Source: a virus. Taken from it: DNA of 26,825 bases. Both the position numbers and the translations under genes were made by a program. The DNA is taken from IMG/VR virus record IMGVR_UViG_3300021962_000538, positions 1 to 26,825 of that record; one strand, 5' to 3'. The notes beneath the pieces were generated by a model. That model was given only the letters and a program-made list of their open reading frames with translations, was not told the origin of the DNA and did no database searches. Shown here piece by piece: positions 11,478 through 21,926 of the stretch (its first letter is position 1; the number at the start of each line of letters is the position of its first letter).

Positions 11478-11531
11478 GCCCTTTCTCAAAAACATATTAT
11501 TTTTTAATATTAAATTACTGCAAACAAAATA

Positions 11532-13364: not shown

Positions 13365-14021
13365 ATGTCATTCGAAGCGATGTCTTGGGCCGCTAGGCGT
13401 CCATGTAAGAACAGCCTAAACAAGCTAGTTCTTCTTATGCTAGCAAATTATGCAGACGAAAATCATAGGACATGGCCAAGTTATAAGCATTTAGCGGAAC
13501 TGTGCGAATGCACTGAACGCTCCGTTATCAGGGCTTGTAAATCTCTGCAAGAAGAAGGCGCTTTGGCTATATGGCCACGGTTTACACCTCTAGGTAAACA
13601 GACGAGCAATTTGTTTATATTGCACGTTCTAGAGGGTGACAAAAAAGGGGGGGTGAGGGTGCCAAAAACAGCACCCAATACTATCAATAATATACTTGAA
13701 AATATTAATCAGATTGGGGGTGACAAAAACAGCACCCCTAAAACTGATAAAAAATACTGCCAGGATTTTGAAGATTGGTGGACCTTATACCCCAGGAATG
13801 ACGGCTCTAAGAAAAAAGCTCATGAGCTCTGGCAGCGTGTCACAAACAAAGAAATTGACGTTGCTAAATTGCAACAAGCGACATTCAAATTTATGAAAGC
13901 CAGCATAGGAAAAGATAAAAAGTTTTTACCACATGCAACAACCTGGCTATCGCAAGGTCGATGGGAAACAGTTGAAGAAGCACAAGCAATAACCACGAAC
14001 CGCAACTCACTAGCTGGATAA
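13365..14021 (+). CDS. Replication initiator, phage O-like (winged-helix N-terminus)
   Basis: 218 residues from ATG 13365 with a full AGGAGG. The first ~95 residues are the helix_turn_helix_36 type winged helix: SLNKLVLLMLANYADENHRTWPSYKHLAELCECTERSVIRACKSLQEEGAL, then a beta wing ending in 'NLFILHV'. A variable linker follows that is encoded by iteron-like repeats, then a C-terminal domain with DFEDWWTLYPRNDGSKKKAHELWQRV and FLPHATTWLSQGRWE, the classic DnaC/DnaB-recruiting end of lambda O-like and DnaD-like initiators. It would bind repeats in its own gene and load the helicase encoded next. Three bases separate it from that gene. Confidence 0.85.
   Translation: MSFEAMSWAARRPCKNSLNKLVLLMLANYADENHRTWPSYKHLAELCECTERSVIRACKSLQEEGALAIWPRFTPLGKQTSNLFILHVLEGDKKGGVRVPKTAPNTINNILENINQIGGDKNSTPKTDKKYCQDFEDWWTLYPRNDGSKKKAHELWQRVTNKEIDVAKLQQATFKFMKASIGKDKKFLPHATTWLSQGRWETVEEAQAITTNRNSLAG
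13634..13738 (+). repeat. Iteron-like repeats in the initiator gene (candidate origin)
   Basis: Three related copies: GGGTGACAAAAAA at 13634-13646, GGGTGCCAAAAACAGCACCC at 13657-13676 and GGGTGACAAAAACAGCACCC at 13718-13737. The second has inverted ends (GGGTGC/GCACCC). Between copies two and three lies an AT-rich stretch (about 13677-13713), and more AT follows at 13739-13760. The three copies are read in different translation frames (GDKKG; VPKTAP; GDKNSTP), so the protein is not repetitive although the DNA is. That points to DNA-level selection, as in lambdoid origins inside the O gene. Function not tested. Confidence 0.65.
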
Positions 14022-14024
14022 CAA

Positions 14025-15797
14025 ATGCTACAACTAATAGACCAAGGAATTCGCCTTCGTAATTACGATGCAGGCGACAAGAAGACGACATGCCCGCAGT
14101 GTTCGCACACCAGAAAAAACAAGAAAGACCAGTGCCTATCAGTTACAATAGACAGGGATGGTGGTGCTGTTTGGATGTGTCATCACTGCAACTGGACGGG
14201 CGGTCTTGGCGGCGATGATTTTAAAAGAAATCGTGAACCAATCCAGAGACGCGAATACAAGAAACCAGAGCCACTAAAGCACATCGCGATTTCAGACGGC
14301 GTGAGGGCGTGGTTTCAGGCCCGCCACATATCCGAGAAAACTGTTAATGAATATAAGTGTTACAAATCCAGCATCAGCTTTGGGGACGCTCCAGAGGCCT
14401 GCATAGCATTCCCATATTTTGAAGACGGTGAATTGGTTAATGTAAAATACCGCACCAAGGATAAGCGGTTTAGACAGGAAGGCGGAGCGAAGCGCACCTT
14501 GTTTGGCATTGATAAAGTTAAAAAATACTGGGCAGACACGGGTAACAAGTACGTCATTTTCGTTGAAGGGGAGATGGACGTGCTAGCGCTATGGGAAGCT
14601 GGGTTTGAGTACGCCACAAGCCTACCAGACGGCGCTCCAAAGGAAGCAAAGTTTGATGCCAACGATAAACGGTTTGAGGCTTTGCAAAACTGCGAATGGC
14701 TTGATGAAGTAGAGCGTGTCTATATCGCTACAGACGGCGACCAGGCGGGCCAGTCCTTAGCTCTGGAGCTAGTTCACCGCTTTGGCAAGGACAGGTGCTG
14801 GAACGTAAAATGGCCAACGATAAACGATGTGGTTTGCAAGGACGCCAACGAGACGCTAGTGGAGCATGGGGTCTATGTCGTCAATGAGTGCATAGACTTT
14901 GCCACACCTTATCCCATAGACGGGCTCTACACGGTCTCTGACTACAAGACAGAGGTCTTAAATATCTACAGGGGTCACGTCCAAAAGCCAGTCAGCACTG
15001 GGTTTCATAACCTTGATGAGATTTATAAGGTGATGCCCTCGACGTTTGCTTTAGTGACAGGAATTCCAAACCACGGCAAAAGCAATTTCATTGACCAGCT
15101 AGCGGTCAACCTTATGCAGAAGGAAGGCTGGAAATTTGCCATCTTTAGTCCAGAGCATTCGAGCGCTAACCACATAAGGCGGCTGGCAGAAAAGGTAGTA
15201 AAGAAGCCTTTTGATGTTGGACCCAACGTGCGGATGGATGAAAAAGAGCTTGGGGCGGCAATGGAGTTTTTAGATGGGCGGGTTCACTTCATAGAGACCA
15301 ACGATAGCGTCCCAAACATCGATTGGCTTCTAGGAAAGGCTAGGGCTGCTTGTATGCGGCATGGGGTAAAGGGAATAATTATTGACCCTTATAACGAAAT
15401 AGACGCGAGCCGAGACGGTAACAAACGAGAGGACGAGCATATCAGAGACCTGATAAGCCAGTGCAAGAGCTTTTGCCGTAAGCACGAAATCGTGATGTGG
15501 ATGGTAGCTCACCCAGCAAAGATGCAGAGAGGTTCTGATGGAGCCTACCCACCGCCGTCTCTGTATGATGTCAGCGGGTCAGCGCATTGGAACAATATGT
15601 GCGACGTTGGGCTGGTAGTTCACCGTGACTTCGAAAGCGGAGAAACAAGAGTAATCACGCGCAAGATACGTGAGCAAGGACTATATGGATCGATTGGAGA
15701 GGTGTTTTTTAGGTATAACCTTACCACTCATACTTATGAACCATCGTATGATATGTCTGCCCATGCGGCACCAAAACACTGGACAGACAACGACTAA
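14025..15797 (+). CDS. Bifunctional primase-helicase (T7 gp4/Twinkle-like)
   Basis: 590 residues from ATG 14025. The N-terminal zinc-binding domain has C23-P-Q-C26 and C52-H-H-C55. A TOPRIM primase fold follows, with VEGEMD at about residue 180 and the metal-binding ATDGDQAG at about residue 237. The C-terminal RecA-type helicase has Walker A GIPNHGKSN at about residue 346, Walker B GIIIDPYNEID, a VAHPAK motif and the DVSGSAHWNNMCD motif of replicative helicases. It lays down RNA primers and unwinds DNA in front of the replication fork. It directly follows the O-like gene. No DNA polymerase gene is in view. Confidence 0.92.
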   Translation: MLQLIDQGIRLRNYDAGDKKTTCPQCSHTRKNKKDQCLSVTIDRDGGAVWMCHHCNWTGGLGGDDFKRNREPIQRREYKKPEPLKHIAISDGVRAWFQARHISEKTVNEYKCYKSSISFGDAPEACIAFPYFEDGELVNVKYRTKDKRFRQEGGAKRTLFGIDKVKKYWADTGNKYVIFVEGEMDVLALWEAGFEYATSLPDGAPKEAKFDANDKRFEALQNCEWLDEVERVYIATDGDQAGQSLALELVHRFGKDRCWNVKWPTINDVVCKDANETLVEHGVYVVNECIDFATPYPIDGLYTVSDYKTEVLNIYRGHVQKPVSTGFHNLDEIYKVMPSTFALVTGIPNHGKSNFIDQLAVNLMQKEGWKFAIFSPEHSSANHIRRLAEKVVKKPFDVGPNVRMDEKELGAAMEFLDGRVHFIETNDSVPNIDWLLGKARAACMRHGVKGIIIDPYNEIDASRDGNKREDEHIRDLISQCKSFCRKHEIVMWMVAHPAKMQRGSDGAYPPPSLYDVSGSAHWNNMCDVGLVVHRDFESGETRVITRKIREQGLYGSIGEVFFRYNLTTHTYEPSYDMSAHAAPKHWTDND

Positions 15798-16050: not shown

Positions 16051-16428
16051 ATGTCTTTTAAGTGTCCAGAATGTAATAACACAAAAACAAAAGTTACTGA
16101 CAGTCGCCCCATGCTTGACGGTGTTTATAGGCGACGGTTTTGCATGAAATGCGAACACCAGTTCTACACCAAAGAAACCACATCAGATACTATGCGTGTC
16201 TATACGCCCCCAAGAGAAAAGCCAAAAGCCAAAGGGCCAGTAGTAACTAAGAAACGGAAGCCCATTTCTGCGGTACAAATACGTCGGCAGGCGAGGTCGG
16301 TTACTAGAGACATTCCCAGACCAGTGATTATTGATGATATTCCAGACGTAGACAGAATGACTGACGCTGAGTTAGATAATTTTATCTATGGCTCAAGCGA
16401 TAGATTTGACGACGACGACCCTTATTGA
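16051..16428 (+). CDS. NrdR-like zinc-ribbon protein (lacks ATP-cone)
   Basis: 125 residues from ATG 16051, with GGAGAGG upstream. Residues 5-45 read CPECNNTKTKVTDSRPMLDGVYRRRFCMKCEHQFYTKE, which follows the NrdR zinc-ribbon signature: two CxxC pairs, T-K-V-x-D-S-R, a D-G-x-x-R-R-R and C-x-x-C-x-x-x-F-x-T-x-E. The ATP-cone of true NrdR is absent; instead there is a basic, then acidic low-complexity tail (KPKAKGP, then SSDRFDDDDPY). NrdR represses ribonucleotide reductase genes; here the stand-alone ribbon may bind DNA or host RNA polymerase. The stop is followed at once by the ParB-methylase start. Confidence 0.8.
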   Translation: MSFKCPECNNTKTKVTDSRPMLDGVYRRRFCMKCEHQFYTKETTSDTMRVYTPPREKPKAKGPVVTKKRKPISAVQIRRQARSVTRDIPRPVIIDDIPDVDRMTDAELDNFIYGSSDRFDDDDPY

Positions 16429-16442
16429 CATTGGATCAAGCT

Positions 16443-17729
16443 ATGAAAGTTCAGCAGAAGCTGATAAGCGAAATTATCCCCTACGCAAGAAACCCGCGCA
16501 AAAACCAAGAAGCGATAGCTAAGGTTGCGGGGAGTCTAAAAGAGTTTGGTTGGCGGCAACCTATAGTCATAGATTCCGAAAATGTCGTTATAGCAGGCCA
16601 CACGAGGCTTATGGCAGCGCATTCATTAGGTATGGAGAAGGTGCCTGTAGTAGTTGCAGACGATTTAACTCCTAACCAAGTGAAAGCCTATAGGCTAGCT
16701 GATAACCGAGTAGGGCAAGAAGCTGGTTGGGATGACGACTTGCTCCGGTTGGAAATAAGAGATTTAGAAGACGAAAATTATGACATAAGCCTCACTGGTT
16801 TTGATTTAGACGAATTAGGTGATTTGTTTGACGAGCCAGAGGAAGAAAAATACGCTGACGGTCAGAGCGGAAGCATGGCTGCAACCTATGGTGTACCACC
16901 ATTTAGCGTATTAGATACACGCCAAGGCCACTGGGGCAATTTACGTGACAAGTGGCGGGAAAAGATTGGCGATAAAGGTGAGAGCAGAGAAAATACGCTT
17001 TCAAAAAGTGACTCAAATGTAATGAGTGACATGAATAATGGCGTCAGTTTGTTTGACCCAGTCCTGGCTGAACTTATGGTTAGTTGGTTTGGTGTAGAGG
17101 GCGGCAAAACATTCGATCCATTTGCAGGCGGAATTTTAGGCTTCGTGACAGGTAGCCTCGGCATGGAGTTTCACGGGATAGAGCTACGCAAAGAACAAGC
17201 GGAGATTAATCAGTCGAGATGTACAGCGGCTGGCTTGCCGTGCACGTATCATAACGACACTAGTGAAAATATGGACAAGTATGTTGAGGATGACAGCATG
17301 GATTTGGTTTTTACCTGTCCGCCATATGCTGATTTAGAGGTTTACAGCGACGACCCGCGCGACTTGTCTAATATGAGCACACAAGACTTTTTTAAAGTGT
17401 ACAAAAAAATCCTGCAAAAAACCTTCGCAAAGTTAAAAAACAATCGTTTCGCAATTGTGGTGATGGGCGAGGTGCGAGGCAAAAACGGAGCCTACATTGG
17501 CACAATACCGAAAACAATTCAGATAATGGAAGACGCGGGATATAAATTCTACAACGAAATAGTCTTAATAAATTCAGCTGGTACGCTACCGTTGCGGGCT
17601 GGCAAATACATGCAAGCAACCCGCAAAGTAGGCAAGATGCACCAGAATGTTCTAGTGTTTCTAAAAGGCGACGCAAAAGCAGCTGTCGCAGATTTAGGCC
17701 CTATAGATATGAACTTAGCTGAAGATTAA
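16443..17729 (+). CDS. ParB-like nuclease domain fused to DNA methyltransferase
   Basis: 428 residues from ATG 16443; a TTG at 16425 overlapping the previous TGA would add six residues, so the start is not certain. Residues 5-100 form a ParB/Srx fold: LISEIIPYARNPRKN, IAGSLKEFGWRQPIVI, VVIAGHTRLMAAHSLG and VKAYRLADNR. The second half is a DNA methylase with motif I FDPFAGG at about residue 225 and catalytic TCPPYADLE at about residue 292, and a closing R-K-x-x-K-M-H-Q-N-V-L-V-F. Such fusions occur in phages as orphan DNA methyltransferases. It would act on phage DNA after replication starts. It ends overlapping a - strand small gene by four bases. Confidence 0.85.
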   Translation: MKVQQKLISEIIPYARNPRKNQEAIAKVAGSLKEFGWRQPIVIDSENVVIAGHTRLMAAHSLGMEKVPVVVADDLTPNQVKAYRLADNRVGQEAGWDDDLLRLEIRDLEDENYDISLTGFDLDELGDLFDEPEEEKYADGQSGSMAATYGVPPFSVLDTRQGHWGNLRDKWREKIGDKGESRENTLSKSDSNVMSDMNNGVSLFDPVLAELMVSWFGVEGGKTFDPFAGGILGFVTGSLGMEFHGIELRKEQAEINQSRCTAAGLPCTYHNDTSENMDKYVEDDSMDLVFTCPPYADLEVYSDDPRDLSNMSTQDFFKVYKKILQKTFAKLKNNRFAIVVMGEVRGKNGAYIGTIPKTIQIMEDAGYKFYNEIVLINSAGTLPLRAGKYMQATRKVGKMHQNVLVFLKGDAKAAVADLGPIDMNLAED

Positions 17730-18506: not shown

Positions 18507-19716
18507 CATACTTAGCCACTACAGTCTGTGGCCTATAACTGCGAGAGAAGAGCAAAAAACCCCAAAAGGCGACTGGACCTATTGGTTAGTTCTTGCTGGC
18601 AGGGGTTGGGGCAAGACTCGAACGGGTGCGGAAGATGTAGGCTTTTATGGTTTGCTGCATCCAGGTTCACGAATAGCGGTAGCCGCTCCGACGATTTCTG
18701 ATGCCAGAGATACTTGCATAGAAGGCGAAAGCGGTTTGCTGTCTGTGTTACCGCCAGCACTCATCCAGACGTGGAATAGGTCTCTTGGTGAGTTATTGTT
18801 GAAGAATGGGACACGCTACAAGACATTTTCCGCCGATGAGCCTGATAGATTTAGAGGGCCGCAGCATCATCGGGCTTGGTGCGATGAGATAGCCGCCTGG
18901 AAATACCCAGATGCTTTCGATCAATTGCTATTTGGTTTAAGGCTTGGAGACAGCCCACAAGTAGTCATTACCACCACACCAAGGCCAACGCCTCTGATTA
19001 AGACATTGCTTGAAGACGAAAAAACCGTTGTCACAAGAGGTTCAACTTTTGACAACGCAGACAACCTTGCACCTTCAATGCTTGAACAACTGAAAAAGAA
19101 ATATGAAGGAACTAGGCTTGGTCGCCAGGAATTATATGCAGAAGTGCTTACCGATACTGAAGGAGCGCTCTGGTCGTGGTCATTGATTGACGAAACGCGA
19201 ATAAAAGAAACCGAAGCGCCAGAAATGAGGCGTGTAATCGTTGCAATAGATCCGGCGGTTACAAACAATTCAGATTCTGATGAAACAGGGATTGTGGTTG
19301 CAGGAGTTGGTCTTGATGGACGATATTATGTTTTAGAAGACGCTTCTGGTAAAATGTCGCCAGATGCATGGGGAAGAAAAGCTGTTGACTGTTACTATAG
19401 CTGGCAAGCTGATAGAATAGTAGCGGAGACAAATAATGGTGGCGATTTGGTCGAAAGATTGATAAGAACAGTTGATAATAACGTATCATATAGCCCCGTA
19501 ACTGCATCGCGTGGTAAACTGACGAGAGCGGAACCAATTGCTGCTTTATACGAGCAAAGGAAAGTAAGTCACGCTGGTTTTTTTTCTGAGATGGAAGACC
19601 AGATGACAACGTACATAGGTGGGAGTAGGAAATCACCAGATAGAATGGATGCCTTAGTATGGGCGTTGACCGAACTGAGCCACTCCAGCGGGACGGCATA
19701 TTGGAGAATTAGCTGA
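18445..19716 (+). CDS. terL: Terminase large subunit
   Basis: 423 residues from ATG 18445 (a second ATG follows at 18448; a TTG at 18433 is also in frame). The ATPase has a Walker A of AGRGWGKT at about residue 55, DEIAAW as the Walker B-type motif and TTTPRPT as motif III. The C-terminal nuclease has VAIDPAVT with the first metal Asp, VAETNNGG with the second acidic residue, and the closing DRMDALVWAL. It translocates and cuts phage DNA into the prohead. The start overlaps the small subunit. It ends where the portal begins (ATGG at 19716). Confidence 0.93.
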   Translation: MMTHSEQFLPLLQQLEHDKADILSHYSLWPITAREEQKTPKGDWTYWLVLAGRGWGKTRTGAEDVGFYGLLHPGSRIAVAAPTISDARDTCIEGESGLLSVLPPALIQTWNRSLGELLLKNGTRYKTFSADEPDRFRGPQHHRAWCDEIAAWKYPDAFDQLLFGLRLGDSPQVVITTTPRPTPLIKTLLEDEKTVVTRGSTFDNADNLAPSMLEQLKKKYEGTRLGRQELYAEVLTDTEGALWSWSLIDETRIKETEAPEMRRVIVAIDPAVTNNSDSDETGIVVAGVGLDGRYYVLEDASGKMSPDAWGRKAVDCYYSWQADRIVAETNNGGDLVERLIRTVDNNVSYSPVTASRGKLTRAEPIAALYEQRKVSHAGFFSEMEDQMTTYIGGSRKSPDRMDALVWALTELSHSSGTAYWRIS

Positions 19717-21926
19717 TGGGCATCATCGACAACTTAACTGGGATTTTCAGACAGAAAGCAGAGACGCCGCGCTATGAGGCTAAAGAGGCACCACAGGTAG
19801 TCCTACAGACGACCTACGGCACCCACAAGCGCAGCGACAAATACGAGAGCTACGCAAAAGAGGGATACCAATACAACGCCATCGTGTTCAGATGCGTAAA
19901 CGAAATAGCTAACGGCGCTGCCGCCATACCGTTCAAGGTATTTCAAGGTGAGATAGAGCTAGAACGTCACCCGCTAATCTCATTGCTAGAGAGGCCAAAC
20001 CCGCTTCAAGCTGGCGTTGAATACTTCCAAGCGCTGTATTCTTATCTGCTTCTAAGCGGGAATAGCTTTGCAATTCGGAACGATGTAGGCGGCACACCGC
20101 GCGAATTGCACCTTCTGCGTCCTGACAGGATAAGAATTAAGCCAAGCAAGACATCTATTCCAGAAGGCTATGAGTACGTTTTGGGTGGCCAAGTTGCCAA
20201 ATACTATCCATCAGACCCCATGACGGGTCTTTCAGAGGTTAAGCATTTTAAGTTCTTTAACCCGCTCGACGACTATTTGGGAATGAGTCCACTTATGGCA
20301 GCGGCTATAGACATCGACCAGCACAATGCCATAGCTAACCATAACATTTCATTACTGAATAACGGCGCACGGCCGACGGGTGCGATAGTGTTCAAGCCAC
20401 AGAATGACCGTGGCATTCCAATGCAATTGAGCGACAGCCAAAGGCAGCAATTGAACGAGGACTTGCGGAACAGGTTCACTGGCCCAAATAACTCAGGCCG
20501 TCCAGTTTTGCTTGAAGGCGACTTTGACTGGAAAGAAATGGGCTTGTCGCCAAGAGATATGGACTTCCTGCAAAACAAGAACATGGCTGCAAAGGACATA
20601 GCGCTCTGCTTTGGTGTGCCATCCCAATTGATTGGAGTTCCTGACGCGCAAACCTATGCAAACGTGCAGGAAGCACGTCTGGCGCTCTATGAAGAGACCA
20701 TCATTCCGCTAGCCAAACGAGTTGAGAGCGACCTAAACGAGTGGCTAGCACCGCTTTATGGTGATGATTTCTACATCCAATATGACATTGATGCTGTCCC
20801 CGCCATGACTGAGCGCAGGCGTCGTGTCTATGAAAACGTGACCCAGGCAGTTCGTGAAGGAATTATATCGAGAAATGAAGCTAGAGAGCGGCTTGGTCTT
20901 GAGCCAATATCAGGCGGTGATGAGGTATACATCGCGGCTAACCTCTTCCCGCTCGGTGCGCCTGACGTGGCTCAGGATGAGGGTATTTCACCTGACGATG
21001 CTGGAAAGCTGGCTTATGGTGAGACTGAGACTAAAGAAGAGCATGATGTCTATGAGACAGAAGCTGAAGCCGAGGAGCGCGCTGCGGAGCTAGGCTGCGA
21101 GGGATACCATGAGGCGGAAGGGCCAGATGGTGTCTACTACATGCCTTGTGGCAGTCACGCAGAATGGGTTCGGGCTACGGGAAACGATAAGGCAGAAGGC
21201 GGTGAAGATGCCAAAGCGGAGAGCGACGTTGACACTCGCCCGACACGGGAAATGGCACGAAACGCAGAACAAGGCTTACGTCTCCGAAAGGAGTTCAACA
21301 GAGGCGGCACTGAGGTGGGCGTCGCTAGAGCCGTGCAACTTATCAACCGTGAGCGTTTGTCTCCTAGAACTGTTCGACGGATGCATTCCTTTTTCGCACG
21401 ACATGAAGTTGACGAGCGTGCGGAAGGTTTTCGCCGTGGGGAGCCAGGATTCCCGTCTGCGGGTTTCATCGCCCATCAACTTTGGGGCGGGACAGAAGGC
21501 AGGCAGTGGTCAGCAAGAAAGGTAGAAGAGCTTGATAAAGCTCGCGGAAAAGAGATGGACATACTGGACATCATGGTTCCGTGCTGCGATGACTGCGACG
21601 CATTAAGCTATGGAGAGGTCAAGGCTGATGTCTCAGAAAGCATCGCTAAAGCTCTATCGGAAAAGGTCAAAGAGCATAATGACAAGCATGGTGATGCTAA
21701 GTCTAAGCGTGTTACTCAGCGGATGCTTGAAGCCGTGTTCACCAGAGGCGTTGGAGCGTACAGGACCAATCCTGAAAGTGTGCGTCCCAATGTGACTGGG
21801 CCGGACCAGTGGGGTCTAGCGCGAGTTAATGCTTTCCTGTTTGCAGTGAGGACGGGCAGATTTAAGGGTGGGAAGTTTGATACTGACCTACTCCCTGAAG
21901 GTCATCCTATGAGGACGGGAAAATAA
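19716..21926 (+). CDS. HK97-type portal with two extra C-terminal domains
   Basis: 736 residues from ATG 19716. Residues 1-420 are the HK97 portal fold: YNAIVFRCVNEIANGAA, LLSGNSFA, a clip region and NMAAKDIALCFGVPSQLIGVPDAQTYANVQEA. That part is the normal length of an HK97 portal. It continues past a linker into about 310 more residues. One segment (YETEAEAEERAAELGC, then YMPCGSH) has two cysteines. The next, REMARNAEQGLRLRKEFNRGGTEVGVARA, LSPRTVRRMHSFFARHEVD, FIAHQLWGG, is known in many phage head proteins. The last, KALSEKVKEHND, VFTRGVGAYRTN, DQWGLARVNAFLFAVRTGRFKGG, is another family domain. These tails may act in host modification or head assembly, but their activity is not established here. 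Confidence 0.85.
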   Translation: MGIIDNLTGIFRQKAETPRYEAKEAPQVVLQTTYGTHKRSDKYESYAKEGYQYNAIVFRCVNEIANGAAAIPFKVFQGEIELERHPLISLLERPNPLQAGVEYFQALYSYLLLSGNSFAIRNDVGGTPRELHLLRPDRIRIKPSKTSIPEGYEYVLGGQVAKYYPSDPMTGLSEVKHFKFFNPLDDYLGMSPLMAAAIDIDQHNAIANHNISLLNNGARPTGAIVFKPQNDRGIPMQLSDSQRQQLNEDLRNRFTGPNNSGRPVLLEGDFDWKEMGLSPRDMDFLQNKNMAAKDIALCFGVPSQLIGVPDAQTYANVQEARLALYEETIIPLAKRVESDLNEWLAPLYGDDFYIQYDIDAVPAMTERRRRVYENVTQAVREGIISRNEARERLGLEPISGGDEVYIAANLFPLGAPDVAQDEGISPDDAGKLAYGETETKEEHDVYETEAEAEERAAELGCEGYHEAEGPDGVYYMPCGSHAEWVRATGNDKAEGGEDAKAESDVDTRPTREMARNAEQGLRLRKEFNRGGTEVGVARAVQLINRERLSPRTVRRMHSFFARHEVDERAEGFRRGEPGFPSAGFIAHQLWGGTEGRQWSARKVEELDKARGKEMDILDIMVPCCDDCDALSYGEVKADVSESIAKALSEKVKEHNDKHGDAKSKRVTQRMLEAVFTRGVGAYRTNPESVRPNVTGPDQWGLARVNAFLFAVRTGRFKGGKFDTDLLPEGHPMRTGK

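Follow-up and report, generated by a model that had tools for sequence, protein, structure and literature searches.

A candidate intragenic iteron-type replication origin in the HTH_36 initiator gene of an uncultured phage

The IMG/VR virus record studied here, analysed over its whole length of 26,825 bases and hereafter called the window, contains three short repeats inside the gene of a phage replication initiator. Very probably, this locus is an intragenic iteron-type replication origin that would be bound by its own HTH_36 initiator, opened at an AT-rich stretch and supplied with the primase-helicase encoded by the next gene. The repeats lie unevenly spaced in the linker region of the gene, on both sides of a weak duplex, they are conserved as DNA among relatives, and the gene and its neighbour encode proteins of replication families; origin activity at the repeats would fit all of these findings. 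Sequence alone places the likely origin of an uncultured phage within about 100 bp, and the combination of synonymous-codon freezing with frame-breaking repeats within an initiator gene provides a general route to such likely origins.

The initiator gene and its repeats

The initiator (Table 1) passes the Pfam cutoff for HTH_36 (PF13730, 1.8e-11). Its best match among the PHROGs is the replication-initiation family phrog_270 (residues 1-210, 6.6e-33), with lower-scoring matches to the O-like phrog_391 (2.1e-17) and, over residues 116-206, to the primosomal phrog_9327 (7.3e-12); the C-terminal domain is one that is common to phage initiators and primosomal proteins. Neither Phage_rep_O (PF04492) nor RepA_N (PF06970) was among the Pfam matches at E<=1, and a PDB sequence search returned no convincing relative (best E 0.076). 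By these matches the protein is assigned to the HTH_36/phrog_270 phage replication initiators, and its gene adjoins that of a replicative primase-helicase. The C-terminal tail of the initiator, ITTNRN(S/Q)LAG (13983-14018), is near-invariant among close relatives, with mildly frozen codons, and may be a helicase-contact peptide or have an effect on the start of the next gene. Elsewhere in the window, adjoining ORFs at 16051-17729 encode an NrdR-like zinc ribbon and a fusion of ParB_N with an N6_N4 methyltransferase, and the portal ORF (19716-21926, 736 aa), with matches to Phage_portal and DUF3721 and a below-cutoff match to DUF5824, encodes a fused portal.

Table 1. Coordinates of the features of the initiator locus in the window
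Feature	Position	Strand	Remarks
Initiator gene, 218 aa	13365..14021	+	HTH_36 domain (winged-helix type) at the N-terminus, linker with the repeats, C-terminal domain
Codons of the recognition-helix motif T-E-R-S-V-I-R, residues 50-56	13512..13532	+	R52 is helix position 3
Iteron copy 1 (AGGGTGACAAAAAAGGGGG)	13633..13651	+	Left half-site and A-tract kept
Iteron copy 2 (AGGGTGCCAAAAACAGCACCC)	13656..13676	+	23 bp after copy 1; imperfect dyad; different frame; codons frozen
AT-rich stretch between copies 2 and 3	13677..13716		Candidate unwinding element
Iteron copy 3 (GGGGTGACAAAAACAGCACCCC)	13717..13738	+	61 bp after copy 2; imperfect dyad
Primase-helicase (Toprim + DnaB_C)	14025..15797	+	phrog_239 1.6e-99; PF03796, PF13662

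Read directly from the window DNA, the 12-mer GGGTG(A/C)CAAAAA occurs at 13634-13645 (GGGTGACAAAAA), 13657-13668 (GGGTGCCAAAAA) and 13718-13729 (GGGTGACAAAAA), and a search of the whole 26.8 kb with the pattern GGGTGMCAAAAA, zero mismatches allowed, returned these three places only. Copies 2 and 3 extend to a pair of 20-mers (13657-13676 and 13718-13737) with one mismatch between the members, and both form imperfect dyads (GGGTGC-CAAAAACA-GCACCC; GGGTG...CACCC); copy 1 has no right arm in the window and is not a dyad. A tandem-repeat search of the window found no stronger array elsewhere. When the codons were shuffled while preserving the protein, three or more copies of the 12-mer arose twice among 1000 usage-sampled sequences and seven times among 1000 permuted ones (9 of 2000 together), and the 20-mer pair was never produced in the 2000 shuffles. 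The stretch between copies 2 and 3 consists for 82.5% of A+T, compared with 53% for the whole window, and by nearest-neighbour energies the 40 bp at 13676-13715 form the second-weakest 40-bp duplex of the window, the weakest being located at 11491-11530. GC skew, which had been put forward in the first-pass annotation as a marker of the origin, tracks gene direction and gives no signal at 13.6 kb, and the record is possibly a fragment.

Conservation as DNA among relatives

Relatives were gathered by protein, using search words from the HTH and C-terminal domains and none from the linker, with a few seed sequences that had originally been found by DNA pattern; a scan of genome contigs yielded three weak relatives only. 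The close set consists of the window and 27 distinct relatives (28 genes), with 46-73% identity to the window protein. All 28 genes carry the 23-bp pair of copies 1 and 2, or in L158 an equivalent pair, in differing frames, and 24 of the 28 carry copy 3 at 58 or 61 bp past copy 2. Copy 3 is absent from L155, L156 and L161. In L158 (2001-2723), where copy 3 is also missing, an extra iteron lies 24 bp upstream, which shows that the array is rearranged with retention of the 23-bp pair. In L161 (2001-2621) both remaining copies read GGTGTC instead of GGTGAC, a concerted change, and Arg at position 3 of the recognition helix is kept.

Given an identical amino acid, the fraction of identical codons in the 28 genes is 0.94 in the iterons and 0.85 in the AT-rich DNA that separates copies 2 and 3, compared with 0.37 and 0.43 in the flanking N- and C-terminal domains. 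This codon freeze has sharp edges, with a rise at codon 13632 and a drop after about 13730, and the first half of the AT-rich stretch (AATACTATCAGAGATATACA in most relatives) is also frozen as DNA; the linker peptide varies in the close set, and beyond the element synonymous codons change freely. A distant set of 24 genes displays a similar but weaker freeze of the linker codons (0.89-0.97 at its peak), with altered iteron words, e.g. GGGTATCAGACTGACACCC.

These results bear out the first-pass annotation, which had reported three 12-mers and two long copies in an O-like gene, now found at the same positions, with AT-rich DNA among them and with the long copies translated in different frames (copy 2 as VPK, copy 3 as GDK). 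The repeat interval that it had delineated coincides with the frozen stretch, and the repeats are kept in near relatives despite a variable linker, as it had expected. Its view that the repetition serves the DNA and not the protein is demonstrated statistically by the codon shuffles and by the synonymous-codon freeze in the 28 genes.

The iteron word and the recognition helix

Viral contigs were searched by DNA pattern alone for three GGTGNCA copies, 20-25 bp apart, with N fixed per base, the array counts being samples among the matches listed and as such lower bounds. At least 229 arrays have a spacing that is not divisible by three, which rules out a repeat at the protein level, and 132 of those listed are located within HTH initiator-like ORFs (50 of 96 for N = A, 52 of 68 for T, 20 of 41 for C and 10 of 24 for G), some of which may encode other HTH proteins, because the HTH profile was grown from these initiators and iterated on the same ORFs. 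Arrays with a spacing divisible by three provide an internal contrast: in the C and G classes, most of those among the matches listed are coding repeats of other kinds. Eight arrays outside the profile were sampled, five of which are present in O-like initiator families and two in DnaD-like loader families. Four of the five O-like ORFs were scanned against Pfam, and all four (L338, L344, L372 and L417) match PF04492 at 4.4e-35 or better. These are true Phage_rep_O genes, in which GGTGACA/TGTCAC dyads recur at 23-24 bp and the GGTGNC half-site word is the same despite the different initiator family. Named phages with repeats in the initiator linker are SfV, Vibrio 236O40-1, Arthrobacter Andrew and Vibrio D279. 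In a limited search of the openly licensed literature we found no description of GGTGNC iterons in HTH_36 initiators, and nothing relevant on the literal word GGTGACA.

To relate word and protein, each initiator was given a label according to which base fills the variable position of GGTGNC in its linker, and these labels were compared with the HTH sequences. Among the 43 clusters labelled A or T, position 3 of the recognition helix was by far the strongest HTH column (z 10.9, the next being 3.6). In the 68-member non-redundant set, Arg is found at this position in 45 of 45 initiators of the GGTGAC type and in 9 of 23 of the GGTGTC type; the corresponding Fisher value of 6.6e-9 is too strong because the sequences are related, and the association was discovered and scored in the same data. 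A tree-based test provided two independent pairs on well-supported branches, too few for significance, and 8-10 pairs on all branches, of which 5-9 agree and none oppose. The trend was modest in 50 clusters outside the discovery (one-sided p 0.013), and a link between Lys at position 2 and G is possible (p 0.003, post hoc). The window itself combines Arg at helix position 3 (R52) with base A in two of its three copies.

As helix position 3 is associated with one half-site base across diverse initiators, binding of the repeats by the protein's own HTH is a putative but supported step, and the earlier suggestion that the same protein binds them gains from this association. The association points to the recognition helix, and the wing named in that suggestion is a putative contact. 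It is quite possible, though we stop just short of favouring it, that one degenerate half-site, GGTGNC, serves as the common iteron word in a very large group of initiators, which comprises HTH_36 and true Phage_rep_O proteins and carries the word within its own genes, and that identifiable recognition-helix residues set the variable base (Arg-3 for A, Ser and other residues for T, and possibly Lys-2 for G). If this is true, origin specificity could be predicted from the protein sequence, and should the helix/base rule hold, one could predict for many uncultured phages both the origin and the specificity of replication.

Origin model, other readings and known systems

In the proposed model, the recognition helix of the initiator's HTH_36 domain would contact the three repeats, which consist of half-site and A-tract (core GGGGTGACAAA, with CACCC as partial dyad), a contact that the above association supports. 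Dimers of the initiator would probably occupy copy 3 as well as copies 1 and 2, which at 23 bp are about two helical turns apart. The bound complex may then strain the 40-bp AT-rich stretch and lead to its opening, after which the C-terminal domain of the initiator would likely help to recruit the primase-helicase of the next gene to the opened origin.

Iteron-binding initiators often regulate themselves too, and the repeats could be binding sites of the same protein that act as an operator or as an autoregulatory/handcuffing site and not as the origin. On the minus strand, a weak site resembling a promoter overlaps 13699-13726 and would agree with such a role, but promoter-like sites are not above chance (1 found, 1.4 expected), the repeats are located about 270 bp inside the gene, away from the promoter, and the weak AT-rich duplex between the copies is itself frozen. 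Moreover, the intragenic iterons of lambda-type initiators are origins (PMC7466680). We leave a slim chance to this regulatory reading.

It is highly improbable that the dyads function in the mRNA, as hairpins that serve as a translation, stability or frameshift signal. The repeat region of the window does fold better than shuffles (z -3.5), and there is an Rfam match to a frameshift element, but this match scores 17 bits against the 70 needed and no Rfam family reached its threshold. Moreover, in the 81 iteron copies aligned from the 28 genes of the close set, a near-invariant left part (GGGGTGACA) is followed by an A-rich tract and a loose C-rich right arm, and copy 1 in relatives mostly ends in ...GACAGGGT or ...GCGGGGGT, without a complement, from which it follows that pairing is not what is conserved. 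The same half-sites are also found on either strand in other initiator genes. Alternatively, a different protein, either a phage repressor or a host factor, could bind repeats that lie in the initiator gene by chance. Binding by the initiator is so far a prediction, which leaves room for this, but GGTGNCA arrays accompany initiator genes in phages of great diversity, and the base in the half-site is associated with a residue in the recognition helix of the protein that the surrounding gene encodes, so that we find a foreign binder very hard to credit. Copies 1 and 3 share one frame and both encode GDK, as would suit repetition in the peptide, for instance of a linker motif like GDKN/GVTK, but copy 2 is out of frame with copy 1 in all 28 genes and the codon freeze exceeds the needs of the peptide. 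Such a peptide repeat, like an overlapping gene, can for practical purposes be discarded. An overlapping gene was rejected as no other frame is conservedly open, the longest antisense frame varying from 22 to 132 codons among relatives.

The preferred reading, an intragenic origin bound by its own initiator, can be compared with several known systems. In lambda and the Stx phages, the origin lies midway along gene O, where iterons bound by O, each an imperfect inverted repeat of 19 bp, adjoin an AT-rich region (PMC7466680). The window likewise contains several iterons of about 20 bp, with an A-tract at their centre and AT-rich DNA beside them, midway along the initiator gene; copies 2 and 3 are imperfect inverted repeats like those of lambda, copy 1 is not, and the right arms are loose in relatives. 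It differs from lambda in its half-site (GGGGTGAC, compared with TCCCTC/GAGGGA), in the unequal distances between its three copies (23 and 58/61 bp), the last two of which enclose the AT-rich stretch, in a protein that matches HTH_36 and not Phage_rep_O (PF04492), and in the gene that follows, which encodes a primase-helicase and not a P-type loader. Gene 18 contains different repeats in P22 and in phage L, and the study deduces that each of the two initiators recognises its own set (PMC8022706). These distant initiators also possess their own iteron within the coding region next to a helicase gene, whereas the iteron word of phage L (TGTCCAACGGA) differs from that of the window and the helicase is the DnaB-type gp12, primase and helicase being fused in the window.

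In RepA_N systems, direct repeats that contain inverted sub-repeats on either side of a poly-A tract serve as iterons, to which the N-terminal domain of the initiator binds (PMC7145576), as is also predicted for the window. The window repeats resemble those of RepA_N initiators (PLE RepA, pTZ2162, pSK41) as direct repeats, in copies 2 and 3 with inverted sub-repeats that meet at a poly-A tract, but the PLE iterons are non-coding, whereas those of the window are intragenic and belong to a protein without a RepA_N Pfam match. With phrog_270/HTH_36 proteins such as SfV orf39 the window initiator shares its family, domain order and linker repeats, although the half-site words differ (GGTGCA-like in SfV, GGGGTGAACG in Arthrobacter Andrew). 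The window locus is best read as a lambda-like plan realised with another protein family and another DNA word, and not as a member of the lambda O family.
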